DNA of 52,555 nt from a virus. Positions 1,806 to 42,640 of this stretch are shown piece by piece (the stretch's first letter is position 1; the number at the start of each line of letters is the position of its first letter). The notes beneath the pieces were generated by a model. That model saw only the letters and a list, made by a program, of their open reading frames with translations, did not search any database and had not been told where the DNA came from. A program made the position numbers and the translations under genes. The stretch covers positions 1-52,555 of IMG/VR virus record IMGVR_UViG_3300036712_000029. One strand, 5' to 3'.

Positions 1806-2615
1806 ATGGCTGAGACGAAGAAAGGGGTGAGCGGGACCAGGGAGTGGTCCCACTCGTCCGTCAACTGCATGAGCGGCTGCTCCAATGGCTGCTGGTACTG
1901 CTACGCACGTGCCACAGCCTCCGGCCGCACCAAGACCAAGGACACCGAGGACTGGACGAACGATAAGCCCATTCCGGACAAGATCCACAAGCGGTTCGGC
2001 AAGCGAGAGGGGACCGTGATGTTCCCCACCCAGCACGATCTCACGCCCGGCAACATGAAGTACACCATCGCCGTGCTCCAGAGCCTGCTGAGGGTGGGGA
2101 ACAGGGTGCTGGTGGTGTCCAAGCCGCACCCGGAGGTGATCGAGCAGCTCACCAGGGCGGTGGAGGGCTATGAGGATCAGATCTTGTTCCGGTTCACTAT
2201 CGGCAGCATCGATCCCAGCGTGCTGGGTATGTGGGAGCCCTTCGCTCCCACGGTCGCCGAGCGCATCTTCTGTCTGGTCTATGCCGAGCGCGCCGGCTTC
2301 AAGACCAGCGTGAGCATGGAGCCCCTGCTCTGCCCAGACATCCCCAGCACCATCCAGGCGGTGGACACCTTCTACCCCTACATCACCGACGCCATCTGGA
2401 TCGGGAAGATGAACCATGCTGCGGCGAGGTTGAAGATCAACAAGGCTCCCCCGGCGGCCATCAACGCCGCCAACTTCCTCGAGGGGGCCTGGAACGATGA
2501 CGCCATCCACGAGCTGTATCGACGGCTGAAGGACCATTCCCTGGTCAAGTGGAAGGAGAGCATCAAGAAGATCGTGGGCATCGAGGTGCCCACAGAAGCC
2601 GGACTCGACATCTGA
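1806..2615 (+). CDS. Radical SAM superfamily protein
   Basis: A 269-residue protein starting at ATG 1806. The C-x3-C-x2-C signature (CSNGCWYC, C25, C29, C32) directly follows an extra Cys at 21. It is the classic ligand set for the SAM-cleaving 4Fe-4S cluster. Later segments alternate strand and helix as in a partial TIM barrel (VMFPTQHDLT, RVLVVSKPHP, ILFRFTIGS, KTSVSMEPLL, AIWIGKMN). This resembles radical SAM proteins of the phage Gp37/Gp68 or spore-photoproduct-lyase-like kind. Its stop overlaps the next start (TGATG); that gene encodes a SPASM-like domain, usually fused to such enzymes. Substrate unknown. Confidence 0.8.
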   Translation: MAETKKGVSGTREWSHSSVNCMSGCSNGCWYCYARATASGRTKTKDTEDWTNDKPIPDKIHKRFGKREGTVMFPTQHDLTPGNMKYTIAVLQSLLRVGNRVLVVSKPHPEVIEQLTRAVEGYEDQILFRFTIGSIDPSVLGMWEPFAPTVAERIFCLVYAERAGFKTSVSMEPLLCPDIPSTIQAVDTFYPYITDAIWIGKMNHAAARLKINKAPPAAINAANFLEGAWNDDAIHELYRRLKDHSLVKWKESIKKIVGIEVPTEAGLDI

Positions 2616-2992
2616 TGGGGGACGAACACATCTGCAACGCCGGCGTGACCAAGCTGGAGGTCTTGCCGACTGGCGACATCATCCCCTGTCCAGCGTGCAA
2701 GGATGCGGCGAGAGACCACCCAGAGGTGTTCATCCTGGGCAACATCCGGGACACCACCTTGAAAGAGGCCCTCAAGCGAGGGAGGAAGATCCCGTATCTG
2801 CGCAAGTTCCGCAGGTGGAATCGGTGGGGCATGAAGTGGCGTTCCCACCTGGCTGGTTGTGAGATCTGCGCACAACCGGACGGCGCCTGTACAGAAGGTC
2901 TCAGGATCCTCCTACGAACGGACGAAGCGAGAAACCAGTTCCTGGACGAGAAGGAGAAGCTATATGGGACACACCACCAACAAGAGGGCTGA
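2615..2992 (+). CDS. Stand-alone SPASM-like iron-sulfur domain protein
   Basis: A 125-residue protein translationally coupled to the radical SAM gene. From residue 7 it shows C-x12-G-x4-C (CNAG through GDIIPC), the first half of the SPASM consensus, then FILGNIRDTTLKEAL, a typical SPASM phrase. The end shows C-x2-C-x6-C (CEICAQPDGAC). The final CX3C and last Cys of a full SPASM are missing, so it may bind fewer auxiliary clusters. SPASM domains normally sit at the C-terminus of a radical SAM enzyme; a separate polypeptide is unusual. It may act with the upstream protein (inference). Confidence 0.72.
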   Translation: MGDEHICNAGVTKLEVLPTGDIIPCPACKDAARDHPEVFILGNIRDTTLKEALKRGRKIPYLRKFRRWNRWGMKWRSHLAGCEICAQPDGACTEGLRILLRTDEARNQFLDEKEKLYGTHHQQEG

Positions 2993-4784
2993 CAGCAACC
3001 TGGGAGTCAAACACCAGGTACTTGATCACGGCTTCGTCTGCCTGGTCGACTACATGGGTGGGGACCAGCGCATCGCCGAGGCGGCTTGGGTTTCCAGCAT
3101 CGACGAGGTCGAGGCGGAGAAGAAGACCAAGAAGGGGATCAAGCGGATCATCAACTACATGATGGCCAACCGCCATTGCTACCACCCCACAATGCAGGTC
3201 CTGACGATCAAGGGCTGGAAGCAGTGGGACGAGTGCGAGGGGGAGGAGGTTTTCCTGGTACCAGACCCGAAGAACCGGACCCTCAAACGTGAGCTGCTTC
3301 AGCTCGAGGTATTCGACGCGGATGAGGAGATGATTGCCTACGAGAACCAGAGGATGTCCTTTTGCGTGACTGATGACCATCGGATGTGGTTCAGGCCCCG
3401 TGGACAGTCCGAGTTCGACATCTTCAGAGCGCACAACATGTCGAAGTGGGGTCACTTCGATCCTCTGAAGGGCTATCACTGGGTGCAGTTTGACACGAAG
3501 ACTGACCCGAAGATGCAGTTCATCGGCTTCTACCTGGGGGATGGGAGCTACGGCAGCCTGAATACGATCACTTTCCACATCCGGAAGGAGCGGAAGAAAG
3601 TCTATCTCAGGGATCTGCTCAAGAAGGTGGAGGCGAAGTGGGATGAACGACAATCTTCCACCTACTCGGACGCGGTCGTCTTCACCATCAGGACCCCCGA
3701 ATGGATGAAGGGGTACATCGACGTCACCCTCCGCGCGAAGGACAAGAACTTCCCTCTGGATACTGTCCATCTGCTGGACCACGGAGAGGTCATCGGGCTG
3801 TACGACGGCCTGATCAATTCGGATGGTTCGGAGAAAGATGACCGGCCGCAGACGCAGTTCTCCAGTTCCTCTGAGAAGCTCCTCGATCTGTTTGAGGTGC
3901 TTTCCGCTCTGCTGGGGACGGACGCTCACCGGACATCGATTGGGTCCACCGCTTATCACGGTGAGCGTACGTCTCTGGAGGCGAGGAAGGAGTACTTCAG
4001 CAAGAGGTACTACAAGGGCAAGGTCTACTGTGCTACCAGCTCCACTGGGCTGCTGATGGTGCGTGGCGGAGCGGACAAGTTCGCCTTCGTCTGTGGGAAC
4101 ACGAGCCCATTCGAGCAGGTGGAGCTGGTGTTTCGGGCGCGCATGCCCATCTTCGTGGCCCGCCAGTGGGTGCGCCACCGCACGGCCTCGCTCAACGAGA
4201 TGAGCGGACGCTACCGCCTTCTCCCGAGTGAGAGCTACGTGCCCGGCTACGGGCGCATGGGTGGCAAGGGCAAGAGCAACAAGCAGGGCACCGAGGGCGG
4301 CCTCGAGATCGAGCTGAAGGAGTTGATCCAGAAGCGGTTCGAGGAGGGTCAGCGGGTGGCCTGGGACGACTACGCCTGGCTCGCCGACACTGGCCTGGCC
4401 AACGAGCTCGCCCGGCTCAACCTCCCGCTTGCTGCCTACACGGAGTGGTTCTGGAAGATCGATCTGCACAACTTCTTCCACTTCTGCGGCCTGCGCCTCC
4501 ACCCCCACGCCCAGTGGGAGATCAGGCAGTACGCCAACAAGATGTACGAGCTGGCCAAGGACGTGGCTCCGATGGCCTTCAAGGCGTTCGAGGAGCACCG
4601 TCTCTACGCCGCCACGCTCTCCAACAAGGAGCGCCACGCGGTGTGGTCTATCTTGAACGGCGTGCGCGGTGCCATGCGTGGTGAGACGGAGCCCGCGGCA
4701 GCGATCGACAGCGAGCTGCTTGACCAAATCATCAAGAAGCTGTCTACGCTCCCTCAGCTCGAAAGGACGATCGTCGATGGGTGA
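2964..4784 (+). CDS. thyX: FAD-dependent thymidylate synthase ThyX, interrupted by an intein
   Basis: Makes dTMP from dUMP using FAD and methylene-folate. ATG 2964 was chosen because AAGGAG lies 7 bases upstream; earlier in-frame starts overlap the previous gene with unrelated sequence. The N-extein ends in NYMMANRH and the C-extein resumes with TSPFEQVEL, which together rebuild the ThyX H-x-S-P-F-E motif. The signature RHRTASLNEMSGR follows. Removing the 308-residue insert leaves 298 residues, a normal ThyX size. The start overlaps the SPASM-like gene by 29 bases and the stop overlaps the next gene. Confidence 0.93.
   Translation: MGHTTNKRADSNLGVKHQVLDHGFVCLVDYMGGDQRIAEAAWVSSIDEVEAEKKTKKGIKRIINYMMANRHCYHPTMQVLTIKGWKQWDECEGEEVFLVPDPKNRTLKRELLQLEVFDADEEMIAYENQRMSFCVTDDHRMWFRPRGQSEFDIFRAHNMSKWGHFDPLKGYHWVQFDTKTDPKMQFIGFYLGDGSYGSLNTITFHIRKERKKVYLRDLLKKVEAKWDERQSSTYSDAVVFTIRTPEWMKGYIDVTLRAKDKNFPLDTVHLLDHGEVIGLYDGLINSDGSEKDDRPQTQFSSSSEKLLDLFEVLSALLGTDAHRTSIGSTAYHGERTSLEARKEYFSKRYYKGKVYCATSSTGLLMVRGGADKFAFVCGNTSPFEQVELVFRARMPIFVARQWVRHRTASLNEMSGRYRLLPSESYVPGYGRMGGKGKSNKQGTEGGLEIELKELIQKRFEEGQRVAWDDYAWLADTGLANELARLNLPLAAYTEWFWKIDLHNFFHFCGLRLHPHAQWEIRQYANKMYELAKDVAPMAFKAFEEHRLYAATLSNKERHAVWSILNGVRGAMRGETEPAAAIDSELLDQIIKKLSTLPQLERTIVDG
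3177..4100 (+). other. Intein with LAGLIDADG homing endonuclease inside ThyX
   Basis: 308 codons, in frame. It begins with Cys (CYHPTMQVL, block A), has T-x-x-H in block B (VTDDHRMW), and ends KVYCATSST...FAFVCGN followed by Thr at +1. The penultimate residue is Gly instead of the usual His, which occurs in some phage inteins. Two endonuclease helices are visible: FIGFYLGDGSYG near residue 112 and GLYDGLINSDGS near residue 206, both keeping the acidic residue. The insert should therefore be able both to splice and to home. It splits the flavin/substrate motif of ThyX, so activity depends on splicing. Confidence 0.92.
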
Positions 4785-5073
4785 GCCCCACATCATCCAG
4801 GGTATGCCGGTCGGGTGGTGGTTCAACGAAGGCCGGGCCGCCGACCGGTGGTCAGGCCCCTTCAAGACGGCTGAGGAGGCTGAGAAGATCGCCAAGTCCA
4901 TGGCTCCAGATCAAGTCGAGTTCATCAAGCTGTTGTGCGTCATGCCGTGGGAGAAGCGCGAGGTGCGCGTGGAGCCACCCAGGAAGTACGTGAAGTGCAA
5001 GAGCTGCAAGGGTGGCTTCGTGGGCGACCGTTGCTGCTCCAGGTGTGAAGGGACAGGGAGGATCGAGGTATAA
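4777..5073 (+). CDS. Small protein with DnaJ-like zinc motif
   Basis: 98 residues; ATG overlaps the ThyX end by 8 bases. The N-terminal half is an aromatic alpha/beta segment. The C-terminus carries CKSCKGG and CSRCEGTG, the C-x-x-C-x-G repeats seen in the zinc domain of DnaJ and in many small phage proteins. The stop codon TAA lies inside the next promoter-like motif. Function unknown; a zinc-stabilised binding protein is likely. Confidence 0.75.
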   Translation: MGEPHIIQGMPVGWWFNEGRAADRWSGPFKTAEEAEKIAKSMAPDQVEFIKLLCVMPWEKREVRVEPPRKYVKCKSCKGGFVGDRCCSRCEGTGRIEV

Positions 5074-5104
5074 GTACCCTGGACCAAAACAAGGAGGCTG
5101 GCTA
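5067..5104 (+). promoter_or_regulatory. Promoter-like motif with duplicated leader, no gene follows
   Basis: GGTATAAG at 5067-5074 followed by ACCCTGGACCA, an A-rich run and AAGGAGGCT. The stretch matches the promoter-leader at 11194-11230 almost base for base, including the ribosome site. Here, however, no start codon follows at normal spacing. Only tiny frames are present before the terminator: 11 codons from GTG 5112 and 27 codons from ATG 5147. It looks like a copied promoter that has lost its gene or now makes a short transcript. Confidence 0.6.
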
Positions 5105-5194
5105 ACCCACCAGTGGATCGGCTGAGGAGCCTGGGCGACCTCCTATGAATGAGCGCCCCAACCGACAACCCCTCAAGGAGGTGAGCGGGAGAGT

Positions 5195-5226
5195 AGGGGA
5201 CCAGGTGCACCTGGTCCCCTTACTTT
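5195..5226. terminator. Bidirectional terminator, 26-base palindrome
   Basis: 5195-5220 is a perfect inverted repeat centred between 5207 and 5208 (AGGGGACCAGGTG and its complement), followed on the plus strand by TTACTTTA. It separates the plus-strand cluster from the minus-strand pair that begins with the stop codon at 5220. Confidence 0.8.
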
Positions 5227-7444: not shown

Positions 7445-7836
7445 TGGAATGGTGGACGAAGTGTAGACCCAACTACGATGCCCACCCGATGGCGAAGTAC
7501 ACTATCATGATCCGTGGCGAGGACGATCCGGAGCGCATGCCACGCGAAGCCCATCCCAACGGGCGCCAGCCGGATATGGCGCCCCACCACACCATAGCCA
7601 AGATGGACATCCTCAGAATCAAGAGGATCATCATCAACCACCTGAGCGACGGGGAGCCCCGCACGTTCAACCGCATCGGAGTGGAGCTGTGGGACAAGAC
7701 CGCAGACCTACTCGGCGGGACGAAGATCGAAACGGCGCTCTGGGACCTCTGCATGGAGGGCAGAGTTGCCTTCACAGATCACGCCCCGATCTTGTTCAGG
7801 TGGATTGAGCCTACCGGCCAGCAGAATCTCTTCTAG
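7444..7836 (+). CDS. Winged-helix-like protein, 130 aa
   Basis: Coupled to the previous gene (TGATG). Residues about 52-125 read as helix (DILRIKRIIINHL), turn, helix (TFNRIGVELW), helix (IETALWDLCMEG) and a wing (RVAFTDHAPILFRW), a plausible winged helix for DNA binding. The stop lies inside a terminator stem. The target is unknown. Confidence 0.65.
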   Translation: MEWWTKCRPNYDAHPMAKYTIMIRGEDDPERMPREAHPNGRQPDMAPHHTIAKMDILRIKRIIINHLSDGEPRTFNRIGVELWDKTADLLGGTKIETALWDLCMEGRVAFTDHAPILFRWIEPTGQQNLF

Positions 7837-7856
7837 AAGGGCTTGGCCCTTCTTTA
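7835..7856. terminator. Bidirectional terminator hairpin
   Basis: Stem AGAAGGGC (7835-7842), loop TTG, complementary arm to 7853, then TT. It sits between convergent genes and shares bases with both stop regions. Confidence 0.8.
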
Positions 7857-38726: not shown

Positions 38727-38797
38727 CAATCGTCACTACTTGAGCACCAGCCTCCGGTCCACTACTATTGGTACCACGACCTGATCTAGGGTGGGAA

Positions 38798-39295
38798 GTG
38801 GCTGAAGAAGATCTCAGACTGTTGGAAGCCAGACTCTCGTCTCTTGAGGGGCAAGTCCGGTTCTTGCTGAGGATCAACGGCCTTGACTTGTCCGCCCTCC
38901 GATCGGCTCCCGATGAGAAGCTCCTGAAATACTACCAGGATGCCGTCCAGCTGCTAGGGCTAAAATCAAAACAGTACCCGCCGGAGATTGTGGAGCAGTG
39001 GGCTGACCTCTTCGCCCAGCTCTCCGAATACGAGTGTGCCCGCCTGCAGCTCATCGTGGACTACGAACACACGTGGGAACCGTTCTACCACCTCTGCGTC
39101 AGGATGATGACCGGCCTCCGACAGCACCGGGACATGCCCACAGACGTGGGCATGCAACATCTCTACGCCTTCCTCGAGCGTTCGAGGAAGAACCTACGTG
39201 ACGTAGCCATCATGATGATCAAGAAGTACCCGGACACCGTGCCACCCAAGGCAAAAACCCTCCTGAATGGCGATGATCTGTCTGCCTACCTCTAA
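38798..39295 (+). CDS. Helical protein on plus-strand island, 165 aa
   Basis: Probable GTG start at 38798; TTG 38768 is the other choice. Coiled-coil N-terminus (LRLLEARLSSLEGQVRFLL), further helices, and an acidic end. Ribosome site weak. Divergent from the virion operon across its promoter. Not recognised. Confidence 0.6.
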   Translation: MAEEDLRLLEARLSSLEGQVRFLLRINGLDLSALRSAPDEKLLKYYQDAVQLLGLKSKQYPPEIVEQWADLFAQLSEYECARLQLIVDYEHTWEPFYHLCVRMMTGLRQHRDMPTDVGMQHLYAFLERSRKNLRDVAIMMIKKYPDTVPPKAKTLLNGDDLSAYL

Positions 39296-39399
39296 AACTG
39301 CAAATCGCTGATATTCCTAGAGATAAGGCTAGTGAGGCGGAAGAAGTAATTCTTTCCCCTCGCACGATCTGATCAACAACGCCCAAAAAGGAGGTTTCC

Positions 39400-39825
39400 A
39401 TGGGCAAGGCAGCGACCGCCGAGAAGGCGGAGGTCGAGAGTGCGGTGGACGAGGCGAAGATCGCCGTGGCACTCGGCCAGGAAATGGCCAAACAGCTCCC
39501 CAGCATGCTGGAGAAGCTCAAGGACGCCCAGGCCGAGATGTTGAAGGACCTGGGGTACGAGAAGACCGAGATCACCGAGGAGCTGATCTTCCGGAGCTTC
39601 CAGGCCATGCCCGCGGAGAAGAAGGATGACCTGCTCCGCAAGCACGGTCTCGTCCCCACGCCGGGGTTCTTCTCCAGCATCACCGGCTGGCACAACATCG
39701 AGCATCTCCGCTCGAAAGGCTGGCAGAACAAGGTTCAGGGCGCCATGGGCCTGCTGTACCAGGGCGCCGCGATCGGCCTCGCGATCTACCTGGGAGTGGA
39801 CTGGTATCGGAGCCGCGCCGCCTAG
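39400..39825 (+). CDS. Membrane-associated helical protein, 141 aa
   Basis: AAAGGAGG site. Alanine/glutamate-rich helical N-terminus with a LEKLKDAQAEM stretch, then a basic region and a C-terminal hydrophobic segment (GLLYQGAAIGLAIYLGVDW) that could be one membrane helix. Holin-like or virion roles are both possible and undecided. Confidence 0.65.
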   Translation: MGKAATAEKAEVESAVDEAKIAVALGQEMAKQLPSMLEKLKDAQAEMLKDLGYEKTEITEELIFRSFQAMPAEKKDDLLRKHGLVPTPGFFSSITGWHNIEHLRSKGWQNKVQGAMGLLYQGAAIGLAIYLGVDWYRSRAA

Positions 39826-40007
39826 GGAAACCGGGGGCCGCGCCGTTCCTCCAGAGACTCCATAGCGAAAGGAGGTTCTACAGAACAATGATCTAGTCGG
39901 AAGCGTCCCTCCTGGCCTCGGGGGTGACGTGGATTCATAAGGGGCGCGGGGGATAGCCACCTCGTTCCGGTGAGGAGTCAAGCCGGTGAAGGGTCGCGCC
40001 AAACGGC
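39826..40007 (+). other. Intergenic region with possible structured RNA
   Basis: Contains TTCATAAG near 39934, a weak version of the plus-strand promoter motif. Then GGCGCG (39943-39948) pairs with CGCGCC (39995-40000), enclosing CACC/GGTG and an AAGCCGGTGAA element that also occurs at 12200. A 3-codon frame (ATG ATC TAG, 39888-39896) with a strong AAAGGAGG lies upstream. No tRNA loops are visible. Not assigned to any RNA class. Confidence 0.4.
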
Positions 40008-40037
40008 GAAGAGGAGCGCACGTGACTCCTCTTCTTT
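40008..40037. terminator. Bidirectional terminator before terminase stop
   Basis: Perfect 9-base stem GAAGAGGAG/CTCCTCTTC (40008-40016, 40026-40034), then TTT on the plus strand. Ends plus-strand transcription of the island; overlaps the terminase stop codon. Confidence 0.8.
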
Positions 40038-41862
40038 ACCCGTGAGACGGCGGCACTCCGGTGTCCTTCATCGGGGTCAGGATGTCGGGCCTTGGCCGCA
40101 TAATCATGGAGACCAAGATGCAGTAGAGGATCGAATGGAAGGCGTCGTCCGTCTTGCCTGGCGCCTTCTTGTACTCAATCATCCTCAACCGCTCGTTGTA
40201 CTCGGCGAAGATGTTGAGGATGTCAGTGCCGTGAGGCTCCCGGAAGTCCTCCCAGTTCGGTAGATCTATCAGCTTCCGCTTCATGGCGTTGAAGATATCG
40301 CTCATCACCTCGGAGCGGTGGACCATGTGGCGGAGGAGATTCGGCTCCCAGTACACCTTCTTCTTTTGCCTGGGGTTGTACTGGTACTTCATGATCTTGC
40401 TGGGTCCGAACCGCCGGAGCAGAGTATCGTTGGGATAGAAACCCCCGCCATAGTCCACCCCTACGAGCTGGACGTTGAGCTGCGCGATCATCTGGGTGAT
40501 GAGATCCAGCTGCCGCTCGGGCTCCAGGTCTGGCCCAGTAAAACGGTGGATCCAGAAGATGGAGAAGTTCCCGGTCCCGAAGTAGCCCCCGAAGGAGATA
40601 ACCGTGTAGGTGTTCTCGCCCGTACCCCAGTCCAGGCCGGCGAAGATCTGACGCCCAGAGGCCAGGCGCTTGAAGTGCTCGATGTCCCCCAACCTGATGC
40701 TTGGCTTGCAGCATGCCTTGAGCTGACCCTTGGTGATGGGACGCACGCCAGAATCATAGGAGAGCCCCAGCTTCTCGTTCATGAACTGGGCACGTGGGTA
40801 CTGCTCCTGAGCGGCCAAGATCTCGTCCCAGTCCACCCACTGCACCATGATCTGTGGGATGCGGTAGCTCTCGAAGGTGACCTTGTCCTTGTTGTCCTCA
40901 GTGATCGGATTCATCGACGCCCACTGAGCCATGGGGTGGGTAGCGTCGATGGGCTCCCCACACTTGTCGCAGATCAAACCCTTCTCACCGATGTTCTTCT
41001 CGCCCAAGATGTTCCAGTGCCAGGAGCTGGGATCCTTGGGCGTGCCGTGCCTCTCACAGGGGACGATCCACTCATTCTGGGTGGAGAACTCCGACCAGTA
41101 GTGCTCGAGCGTGTTGTCCATCGACTTCGGCGTGCCGGAGTAGACGAACAGCTTGTACTTGGAGTGGAAGGCGCACTGCTCGATGATCGGGATGTTGTCG
41201 ATGAGGATGTCCTGGATCTCATCGATGCAGATCAAGTCCGCCGGGATACCACGGACACGGTCGGCCGTGAGGTAGGCGTAGCGGAGACGGATCTGCGAGA
41301 AGTTGATGAACTTCTTGAAGAAGACAGCCTGTGAGATCTTGGTCGTGGTGTACGCCTTCATCAACGGCGACGCTTCCACCACGTCCTTGATGCGATCTGT
41401 CGAGAAGACCTTGGCCTGCTCGGCCGAGGGGGCGACGAACAGGGAGCGGAAGTTGTTGGTCAGTGCCGAGTAGCAGAGCAGCCTGTTGCCGAGGGTCGTG
41501 GACTTCTCCACCTGGCGGCCGCACTTGAGCAGGACCTTGTCCGCAGTGGTGTCATAGATGCGGCGGAGGTACTCGCGGCCCTCGAAGCTGAAGTCTGAGA
41601 CCTGGCCTGCCTCCGGCACACGGATCGCAGTCTCGGCGAACGATGAGGGGGACACGTCGTAGATGAACGTGTCGGCCTCGACATCCAGCAGGTCGTCCGG
41701 AGTGGGGTCCGGCGGCTCCAAATCGATCCCGAAGTCCTGTGGATTGCCCTCGTCGTCGTAGTCGAACCAGGGCTCCTTGATCTCCCCATCCAGGGAGTAG
41801 AGCAGAGGGATCACCTTAGCCGATCTGAGGACCTCCGCTTCTGCCAAATTGATCGTCGCCAT
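40036..41862 (-). CDS. terL: Large terminase subunit
   Basis: 608 residues; packages DNA into the prohead. ATPase: Walker A-like CGRQVEKSTT at 114-122, Walker B DLICIDEIQD at 209-218, and SGTPKS coupling motif near 242. A CDKC pair near 298-301 may be a small zinc insertion. Nuclease: AGLDWGTGENTYTV (Asp411), VGVDYGGGF (Asp470) and KTDDAFHSI (Asp572/573) supply the usual acidic triad. Weak ribosome site. Its upstream neighbour on the minus strand ends at 42119, across the RNA candidate. Confidence 0.93.
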   Translation of the reverse strand: MATINLAEAEVLRSAKVIPLLYSLDGEIKEPWFDYDDEGNPQDFGIDLEPPDPTPDDLLDVEADTFIYDVSPSSFAETAIRVPEAGQVSDFSFEGREYLRRIYDTTADKVLLKCGRQVEKSTTLGNRLLCYSALTNNFRSLFVAPSAEQAKVFSTDRIKDVVEASPLMKAYTTTKISQAVFFKKFINFSQIRLRYAYLTADRVRGIPADLICIDEIQDILIDNIPIIEQCAFHSKYKLFVYSGTPKSMDNTLEHYWSEFSTQNEWIVPCERHGTPKDPSSWHWNILGEKNIGEKGLICDKCGEPIDATHPMAQWASMNPITEDNKDKVTFESYRIPQIMVQWVDWDEILAAQEQYPRAQFMNEKLGLSYDSGVRPITKGQLKACCKPSIRLGDIEHFKRLASGRQIFAGLDWGTGENTYTVISFGGYFGTGNFSIFWIHRFTGPDLEPERQLDLITQMIAQLNVQLVGVDYGGGFYPNDTLLRRFGPSKIMKYQYNPRQKKKVYWEPNLLRHMVHRSEVMSDIFNAMKRKLIDLPNWEDFREPHGTDILNIFAEYNERLRMIEYKKAPGKTDDAFHSILYCILVSMIMRPRPDILTPMKDTGVPPSHG

Positions 41863-41896
41863 GATCTCAGTCTACCGCAAGAGTCTCGGGAGCACA

Positions 41897-41904
41897 GGTA
41901 TAAG
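41897..41904 (+). promoter_or_regulatory. Promoter-like GGTATAAG before an RNA candidate
   Basis: Exact motif on the plus strand in the 256-base gap between two minus-strand genes, where no plus-strand gene follows. It points at the structured segment ending in a terminator at 42120. Confidence 0.55.
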
Positions 41905-41910
41905 AGTAAT

Positions 41911-42120
41911 AGTTAGGACTGCGATGTACCCTTTCATCGGGTGGTCCTATCGCCAGCAATCCCCCCGGAGCAACGACTGTTTGGCCCCGACCGGCACATC
42001 AAACTACCCCTTGTTGAGAGCTGCGAGTCCGTGGGCAATAGCCTGGAGTTCGTGCGGTACGCTGGCACCAACTCAACTTGGAGTAGTTTGGTAAGTGGCC
42101 GGCAACGCCGGCCCCTTCTT
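41911..42120 (+). ncRNA. Candidate structured non-coding RNA, about 210 nt
   Basis: The segment runs from a promoter-like motif to a terminator. Hairpin 1: AGGAC/GTCCT (41915-41919, 41944-41948) with CGATG/CATCG inside. Long helix: 42000-42018 pairs with 42072-42090 at 16 of 19 positions, with one A/C mismatch and a symmetric UU/UU internal loop. It encloses a 53-base arm that can form further short stems, for example GUGC/GCAC. Open frames here are short and start weakly, so coding is unlikely. Function unknown; both flanking genes lie on the other strand. Confidence 0.55.
42097..42120 (+). terminator. Terminator of the RNA candidate
   Basis: Perfect stem GGCCGGC (42097-42103), loop AAC, GCCGGCC (42107-42113), then CCTTCTT. 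It lies next to the stop codon of the minus-strand gene at 42119. Confidence 0.8.
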
Positions 42121-42640
42121 AGCCCCCAACCTTGAGGGCGACCGCTGCGAATGGGGCCTCGAGCTGGGACTTGCCCATCGACACCGGGCCATCCGGCTCG
42201 GGCATGATGACCGACCAAGCGTCGGGCTCGGGGTAGAAGGTGATCTTCTTCGGGCGGTGCTTGAAGTGCTCGGTGAAGACCTCGTCCAAGACCTGGGACA
42301 TCTCCGGCCACCAGGGGTGGGCGTCCAGGTCGACGTTGGCTCCGGTGGCCACGGCCTGCTGCAGCCTGGATACTTCCGCCGGCGGCTCCTCGTCACGGAT
42401 CCGATCCATCTCGGCGTGAGCCTCGTCGTAGATCTTCTTCCGGTCCCGCTTGTAGAAGTGGTAGATCAACAGGCCGTCCTTGGTGGTGTAGGCCCCGACC
42501 ACCTCACCCTTCTCCACCGGGTGCAGCTCGGGCACAGCGTTCACCACCTGCTCGGCGATGTTCTCCTGCGGCATCTTGGGGTACCGCTTCTCCCACTCCT
42601 CTTCGTCCATCCAGAAAGGCTTCTGCTCTGTCTCAGCCAT
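42119..42640 (-). CDS. Hypothetical protein, 173 aa
   Basis: GGAGGA site. Helical, with W-rich N-terminus (FWMDEEEWEKRY), a central KKIYDEAHAEMDRIRDEE coiled coil and KITFYPEPDAWSVIMPE near the end. Between a TerS candidate and TerL, so a packaging role is possible but not shown. Confidence 0.65.
   Translation of the reverse strand: MAETEQKPFWMDEEEWEKRYPKMPQENIAEQVVNAVPELHPVEKGEVVGAYTTKDGLLIYHFYKRDRKKIYDEAHAEMDRIRDEEPPAEVSRLQQAVATGANVDLDAHPWWPEMSQVLDEVFTEHFKHRPKKITFYPEPDAWSVIMPEPDGPVSMGKSQLEAPFAAVALKVGG

Follow-up and report, generated by a model that had tools for sequence, protein, structure and literature searches.

What is the role of a unit that runs from promoter box to hairpin on the plus strand, between two minus-strand genes? 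The window, that is, the whole stretch of DNA that was analysed, is a virus record of 52,555 bases, and the unit in question lies at positions 41897-42113 (+). Its divergent neighbour is terL (40036-41862, −), which codes for the large terminase subunit (Pfam GpA_ATPase, 1.3e-11; PHROG 675, 1.2e-56). The convergent neighbour, orfU (42119-42640, −), codes for a protein of 173 amino acids that has no match in Pfam or PHROG, and for which AlphaFold predicts an alpha/beta (ferredoxin-like) fold with a pLDDT of 82. The idea that orfU encodes a small terminase of the classical type, or a protein that binds RNA, was set aside, with no family match and only middling PDB structure matches (Z of 7 or less). 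A preliminary description of this DNA had seen no plausible gene within the unit, and inspection of the open reading frames in 41897-42113 gave the same result. A real structured RNA gene very probably exists at this locus. The best reading is that it represents a new, undescribed family of phage structured noncoding RNA, which is a known kind of molecule.

The predicted noncoding RNA spans 41905-42113 (+), with a start that is approximate to within a few bases, and its prediction draws on syntenic units in related phages and on their folding z-scores. It is preceded by an exact copy of the promoter box GGTATAAG at 41897-41904 (+), located between the two minus-strand genes as had been described. 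The window contains five exact copies of this box, all on the plus strand, where 0.16 are expected on both strands together. A putative upstream (−35-like) element, CGCAAGAG, is located at 41876-41883 (+). Its position matches that of GCAAAA or GTGAAAAA, which many promoters of the relatives carry approximately 20 nt ahead of GGTATAAG; this correspondence was read by eye and is not a tested motif. Within the 5-14 kb around terL that were covered in the relatives, GGTATAAG is absent from the terL strand (0 copies) and found 14 + 27 times on the opposite strand, the 27 belonging to the RNA units. Most of the 14 other copies precede a ribosome-binding site and start codon. In some relatives, with genes in either orientation, the box occurs on both strands when the whole contig is considered. 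By these counts, GGTATAAG is the putative promoter of the non-structural genes, opposite the terL strand, and together with the leader hairpin it may provide a promoter signature by which the non-structural regulon can be mapped in these phages. At 5067-5220 the window has a second GGTATAAG unit, in which the reading frames are no more than mini-ORFs (27 aa) and the terminal hairpin is strong; it is possibly another small transcript.

The hairpin reported to follow the box is indeed present: P1, the 5′ leader hairpin, folds at 41914-41949 (+). The dinucleotide UA is found in the apical loop of P1 in 24 of 31 noncoding RNAs (12.7 expected). A similar hairpin occurs in the mRNA leaders behind the same promoter, and 15 of 22 of these have UA in the loop (9.9 expected). 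Thus, the 5′ hairpin belongs to the unit as first described, but it is common to mRNA leaders of the same promoter class and is not specific to the unit. P1 is best interpreted as the regulon's leader hairpin, and what is particular to the noncoding RNA would be P2 with its pseudoknot. Elsewhere in the window, two plus-strand genes form an island within the minus-strand late region (38768-39825), and a P1-like leader hairpin is found there at 39326-39368.

P2 is a long helix formed by a 5′ arm at 41998-42018 (+) and a 3′ arm at 42072-42092 (+). Across 42000-42018 and 42072-42090, 16 of 19 positions are paired, all of them Watson–Crick. The claim that these arms are too well matched for chance holds, as only one of 1000 sequences made by dinucleotide shuffling from the 224-base unit reached an equally good arm pair; across the window, the pair ranks second best of its kind. 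A further feature of the fold had escaped the preliminary description. GCCAGC in the linker after P1 (41952-41957, +) can pair with GCTGGC inside P2 (42061-42066, +), forming a pseudoknot between the linker and the apical loop. In the window-type (A-type) units, the bases that follow P1 pair with the apical part of P2, the counterparts being GCCAGCG/CGCTGGC in L006 and GCCGGC/GCCGGC in L003, L005 and L014. Over seven A-type relatives, the linker-loop pairing is supported by Fisher’s test (p = 8e-5) and by permutation (7/5040), with the boundaries of the test placed by hand; the window pseudoknot taken alone is not significant (p = 0.18, run on the near-identical L002). Several of the helix and motif definitions were chosen by eye after the data had been seen, and an H-type pseudoknot in L128, AGCGCGGCT/AGCCGCGC, was likewise recognized by eye.

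The unit closes with P3 (42097-42113, +), a terminal GC hairpin with a perfect 7-bp stem that ends five bases before the orfU stop. It had been called a perfect terminator. The hairpin deserves the adjective, but the tail that follows, CCTTCTT, is not a clean run of T, and P3 is missing from the output of a standard consensus terminator scan. Other convergent genes in the window end in similar hairpins (7835-7853 and 5195-5220), and P3 is likely to be a terminator or 3′ end. In the relatives, its loop is of the GNRA or UNCG type in 19 of 34 cases when read on the plus strand and in approximately 1 of 34 on the minus strand. At 39868-39900 of the window, a ribosome-binding site, AAAGGAGG, and a mini-ORF (ATG ATC TAG) are followed by a structured, GC-rich tail that precedes the terL stop.

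The window sequence alone could not have proved the case, since the fold of the whole unit is of ordinary energy (z −0.9; −1.4 for the near-identical L002). The strong evidence for a structured RNA comes from the relatives, which were fetched through TerL and orfU searches of IMG/VR and kept where the region upstream of terL was readable. The same layout was found opposite the terL strand in 34 loci (~32 distinct units), in the syntenic order of promoter box, P1, body and a GC-rich P3 beside the orfU stop. The units begin 14-37 nt from the terL start, and farther away in L128, where an HNH-type endonuclease gene with CxxC zinc motifs (1839-2252) has been inserted between terL and an intact RNA unit. 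The promoter box is GGTATAAG in nearly all carriers; the few others have GTTATAAG, GTCATAAG or a weaker variant. Unit lengths range from approximately 120 to 380 nt. Three forms can be distinguished: form A, which includes window-like units and a minimal P1-P2-P3 version; form B (L092, L093, L104, L115, L090 and L117); and form C (L100, L101, L129, L166, L122, L110/L109, L012, L054 and L038).

Minimum energies lie well under those of dinucleotide shuffles in most members, many with z-scores of −4 to −9. The sequences can be aligned only within subgroups, and as a plain alignment of the window-type units is meaningless, a covariance model of the whole RNA was not built. The core hairpin of class C keeps 88.8% of its pairs and shows 19 doubly changed cells, a result matched by 0 of 500 shuffles, with clearly lower values in slid controls. 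The internal loop of the class C helices is conserved in sequence. The preliminary description had set uncompensated change in the paired arms of related phages as its own refuting test, and the relatives came out in favour of a structured RNA. The unit shows the general features of phage structured noncoding RNA, namely its own promoter, a conserved fold with compensatory change and a non-coding sequence.

The strand from which the RNA is read is indicated by several features. The orientation of the promoter, the GNRA/UNCG loops of P3 and a bias towards G-U over A-C mismatches in class C (7:0) favour the plus strand. The same mismatch count is 6:10 in the A-type units and 13 to 10 over all units, where it is not decisive. 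Minimum free energies of the two strands give a mixed picture, the window-type units folding about equally well on both, and for these units it is possible that the minus strand supplies the element.

Searches for the RNA outside this setting gave little. The unit had no match in a DNA search of 50,697 phage records, and in Rfam the window unit had no match at the gathering score or at E-values up to 1; a single chance miRNA match appeared across all Rfam searches. No match was found between Rfam models, ROOL and GOLLD included, and the window plus 14 related loci. The open-access literature yielded no account of an RNA beside terL in phages of this type. A model of the class C core, run over 72 sources, finds only copies divergent from terL, besides a few weak matches at E-values of 0.05 or more. 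Relocation of class C was considered on account of pattern matches in four further IMG/VR contigs, and these were dismissed as chance, as they lie in coding-like sequence with neither terL nor the promoter box nearby.

Known RNAs offer partial likenesses. Lambda OOP and the plasmid RNAs CopA and RNA I are short promoter-to-terminator units with structured stem-loops that lie opposite the gene they regulate. The unit shares their layout and stem-loops, but it has a long pseudoknotted body, a conserved internal loop in class C and no overlap with the start codon. Bacterial 6S RNA is a long imperfect hairpin with a conserved central bubble. Some short members resemble it in being long imperfect hairpins, whereas no Rfam match is found, a central bubble is not conserved across the members and class C has several domains. 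In the phi29 prohead RNA (pRNA, RF00044), a three-way junction is combined with loops that interlock to build a ring on the prohead. In the present RNA, by contrast, P1, P2 and P3 are predicted to stand in a row with a linker-loop pseudoknot, and the window unit matches no Rfam model. Both are small phage RNAs of varied sequence and kept fold, with a link to the terminase proposed here by position; for phi29-type pRNA, wide sequence variation with a kept fold is reported (PMC12670572). ROOL and GOLLD are structured phage RNAs of approximately 600-800 nt, often near tRNA islands, and ROOL has multiple pseudoknots (PMC12286853). Like them, the present RNA is a structured phage RNA with no assigned function, but it measures 120-380 nt, lies beside terL and has no Rfam match, and the window contains no tRNA. 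Families in which sequence turns over almost completely while fold and place are kept escape sequence search, and so they are probably undercounted.

On balance, it is more likely than not that the locus holds a noncoding RNA gene whose product uses its fold to act in trans on a protein of the phage or the host. From the sequence and from comparison of the loci we infer the promoter class, strand, fold, family and inheritance of the RNA, as well as its transcription and its end at P3; trans action and a protein partner are pure conjecture. A promoter of the GGTATAAG class, otherwise used for non-structural plus-strand genes, would fire a transcript of approximately 210 nt away from terL, which would stop at P3, shortly ahead of the orfU stop codon. 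The 5′ part of the RNA would be the P1 common to the regulon, and its own body the long P2, in which the apical part pairs with the linker. The molecule would work by shape and not by coding, most likely by binding a phage or host protein in trans, and would act during the non-structural phase of infection.

The chief rival, unlikely though it is the most serious, is cis-antisense control of the late operon. By position, the RNA is opposite and complementary to the late mRNA. Early expression would then delay terL by duplex formation on the orfU-terL mRNA, by RNase III cleavage or by attenuation. Such control would explain free sequence drift at a fixed place, because complementarity survives any drift and only mirror-image stem-loops need be kept, as in plasmid copy-control RNAs; the strand-symmetric helices of the window-type units agree with this. 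The antisense position is fixed in all carriers, which is weak evidence because late gene order is generally stable. The restriction of the class C core to this place, apart from the four chance matches in IMG/VR, is also consistent with it, as is the count of 0 complementary matches of 12 bases in the rest of the window, which likewise yields no trans target there. However, the class C helices and the P3 tetraloops favour the plus-strand RNA, the conserved internal loop of class C is unneeded for mere antisense action, and the terL start lies outside the RNA.

The preliminary description had offered a regulatory RNA, an RNA acting on packaging next to terL, or a decoy. A role in packaging or morphogenesis with TerL, like that of the phi29 prohead RNA, is doubtful. 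Every carried unit lies beside terL, and the fold is kept while the sequence varies, as in phi29-type pRNA. The well-supported part of that early interpretation is an independent structured RNA unit, but its packaging option is weakened by relatives that keep terL without the RNA there (L008, L044, L050, L125 and L132). A search for the class C core elsewhere in the records of L050, L125 and L132, in a set that includes fragments, found no copy. The terminase is of the GpA type (GpA_ATPase/PHROG 675) and not of the phi29 gp16 type, the pRNA model is among those without a match, and the promoter is of the non-structural gene class. Slightly less probable still is that packaging or head-assembly RNAs come in a second natural kind, unrelated to phi29 pRNA and found in phages with GpA-type terminases, to which this RNA would belong.

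There is little likelihood that the RNA is a sponge for a factor that binds the regulon-common P1 hairpin. Many GGTATAAG mRNA leaders carry P1-like hairpins, but P1 may be a mere part of the promoter-leader module, and the conserved bodies and pseudoknots would be left unexplained. Least probable of all is a processing or attenuation element of the minus-strand late mRNA beside an incidental plus-strand promoter box, as the near-equal folding of the window-type units on both strands is set against a promoter box of fixed orientation with a leader hairpin in nearly all carriers, plus-strand P3 tetraloops and the class C G-U bias.

The reading as a trans-acting RNA gene can be set beside its history. 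In the TerL tree, all carriers form a single clade (support 100/98) of uncultured phages with contigs of up to ~190 kb; form B is a clade, and form C lies beside A and B. The five relatives in which the RNA is missing at the terL position fall within this clade, and in L008 orfU leads straight into terL. These placements point to a single origin with about five losses; relocation is conceivable, as some records are fragments. Natural losses of this kind offer a way of testing the function of the RNA. One of the phages without the RNA at terL, L132 (contig JAGMDA010000864.1), is a TerL relative that was binned in a MAG of Candidatus Eisenbacteria, which may hint at a host.

Some terL genes of the relatives are themselves interrupted, near residues 120, 215 or 427 (L128, L014, L066, L103-L106, L121 and L123). 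In L128, the terL frame is open throughout 2252-5194 as 980 aa, as expected of an intein. An intein-like arrangement also appears in the window, where a ThyX-like ORF of 641 aa (2859-4784) has its Thy1 match confined to residues 413-571, the remainder being intein-looking.
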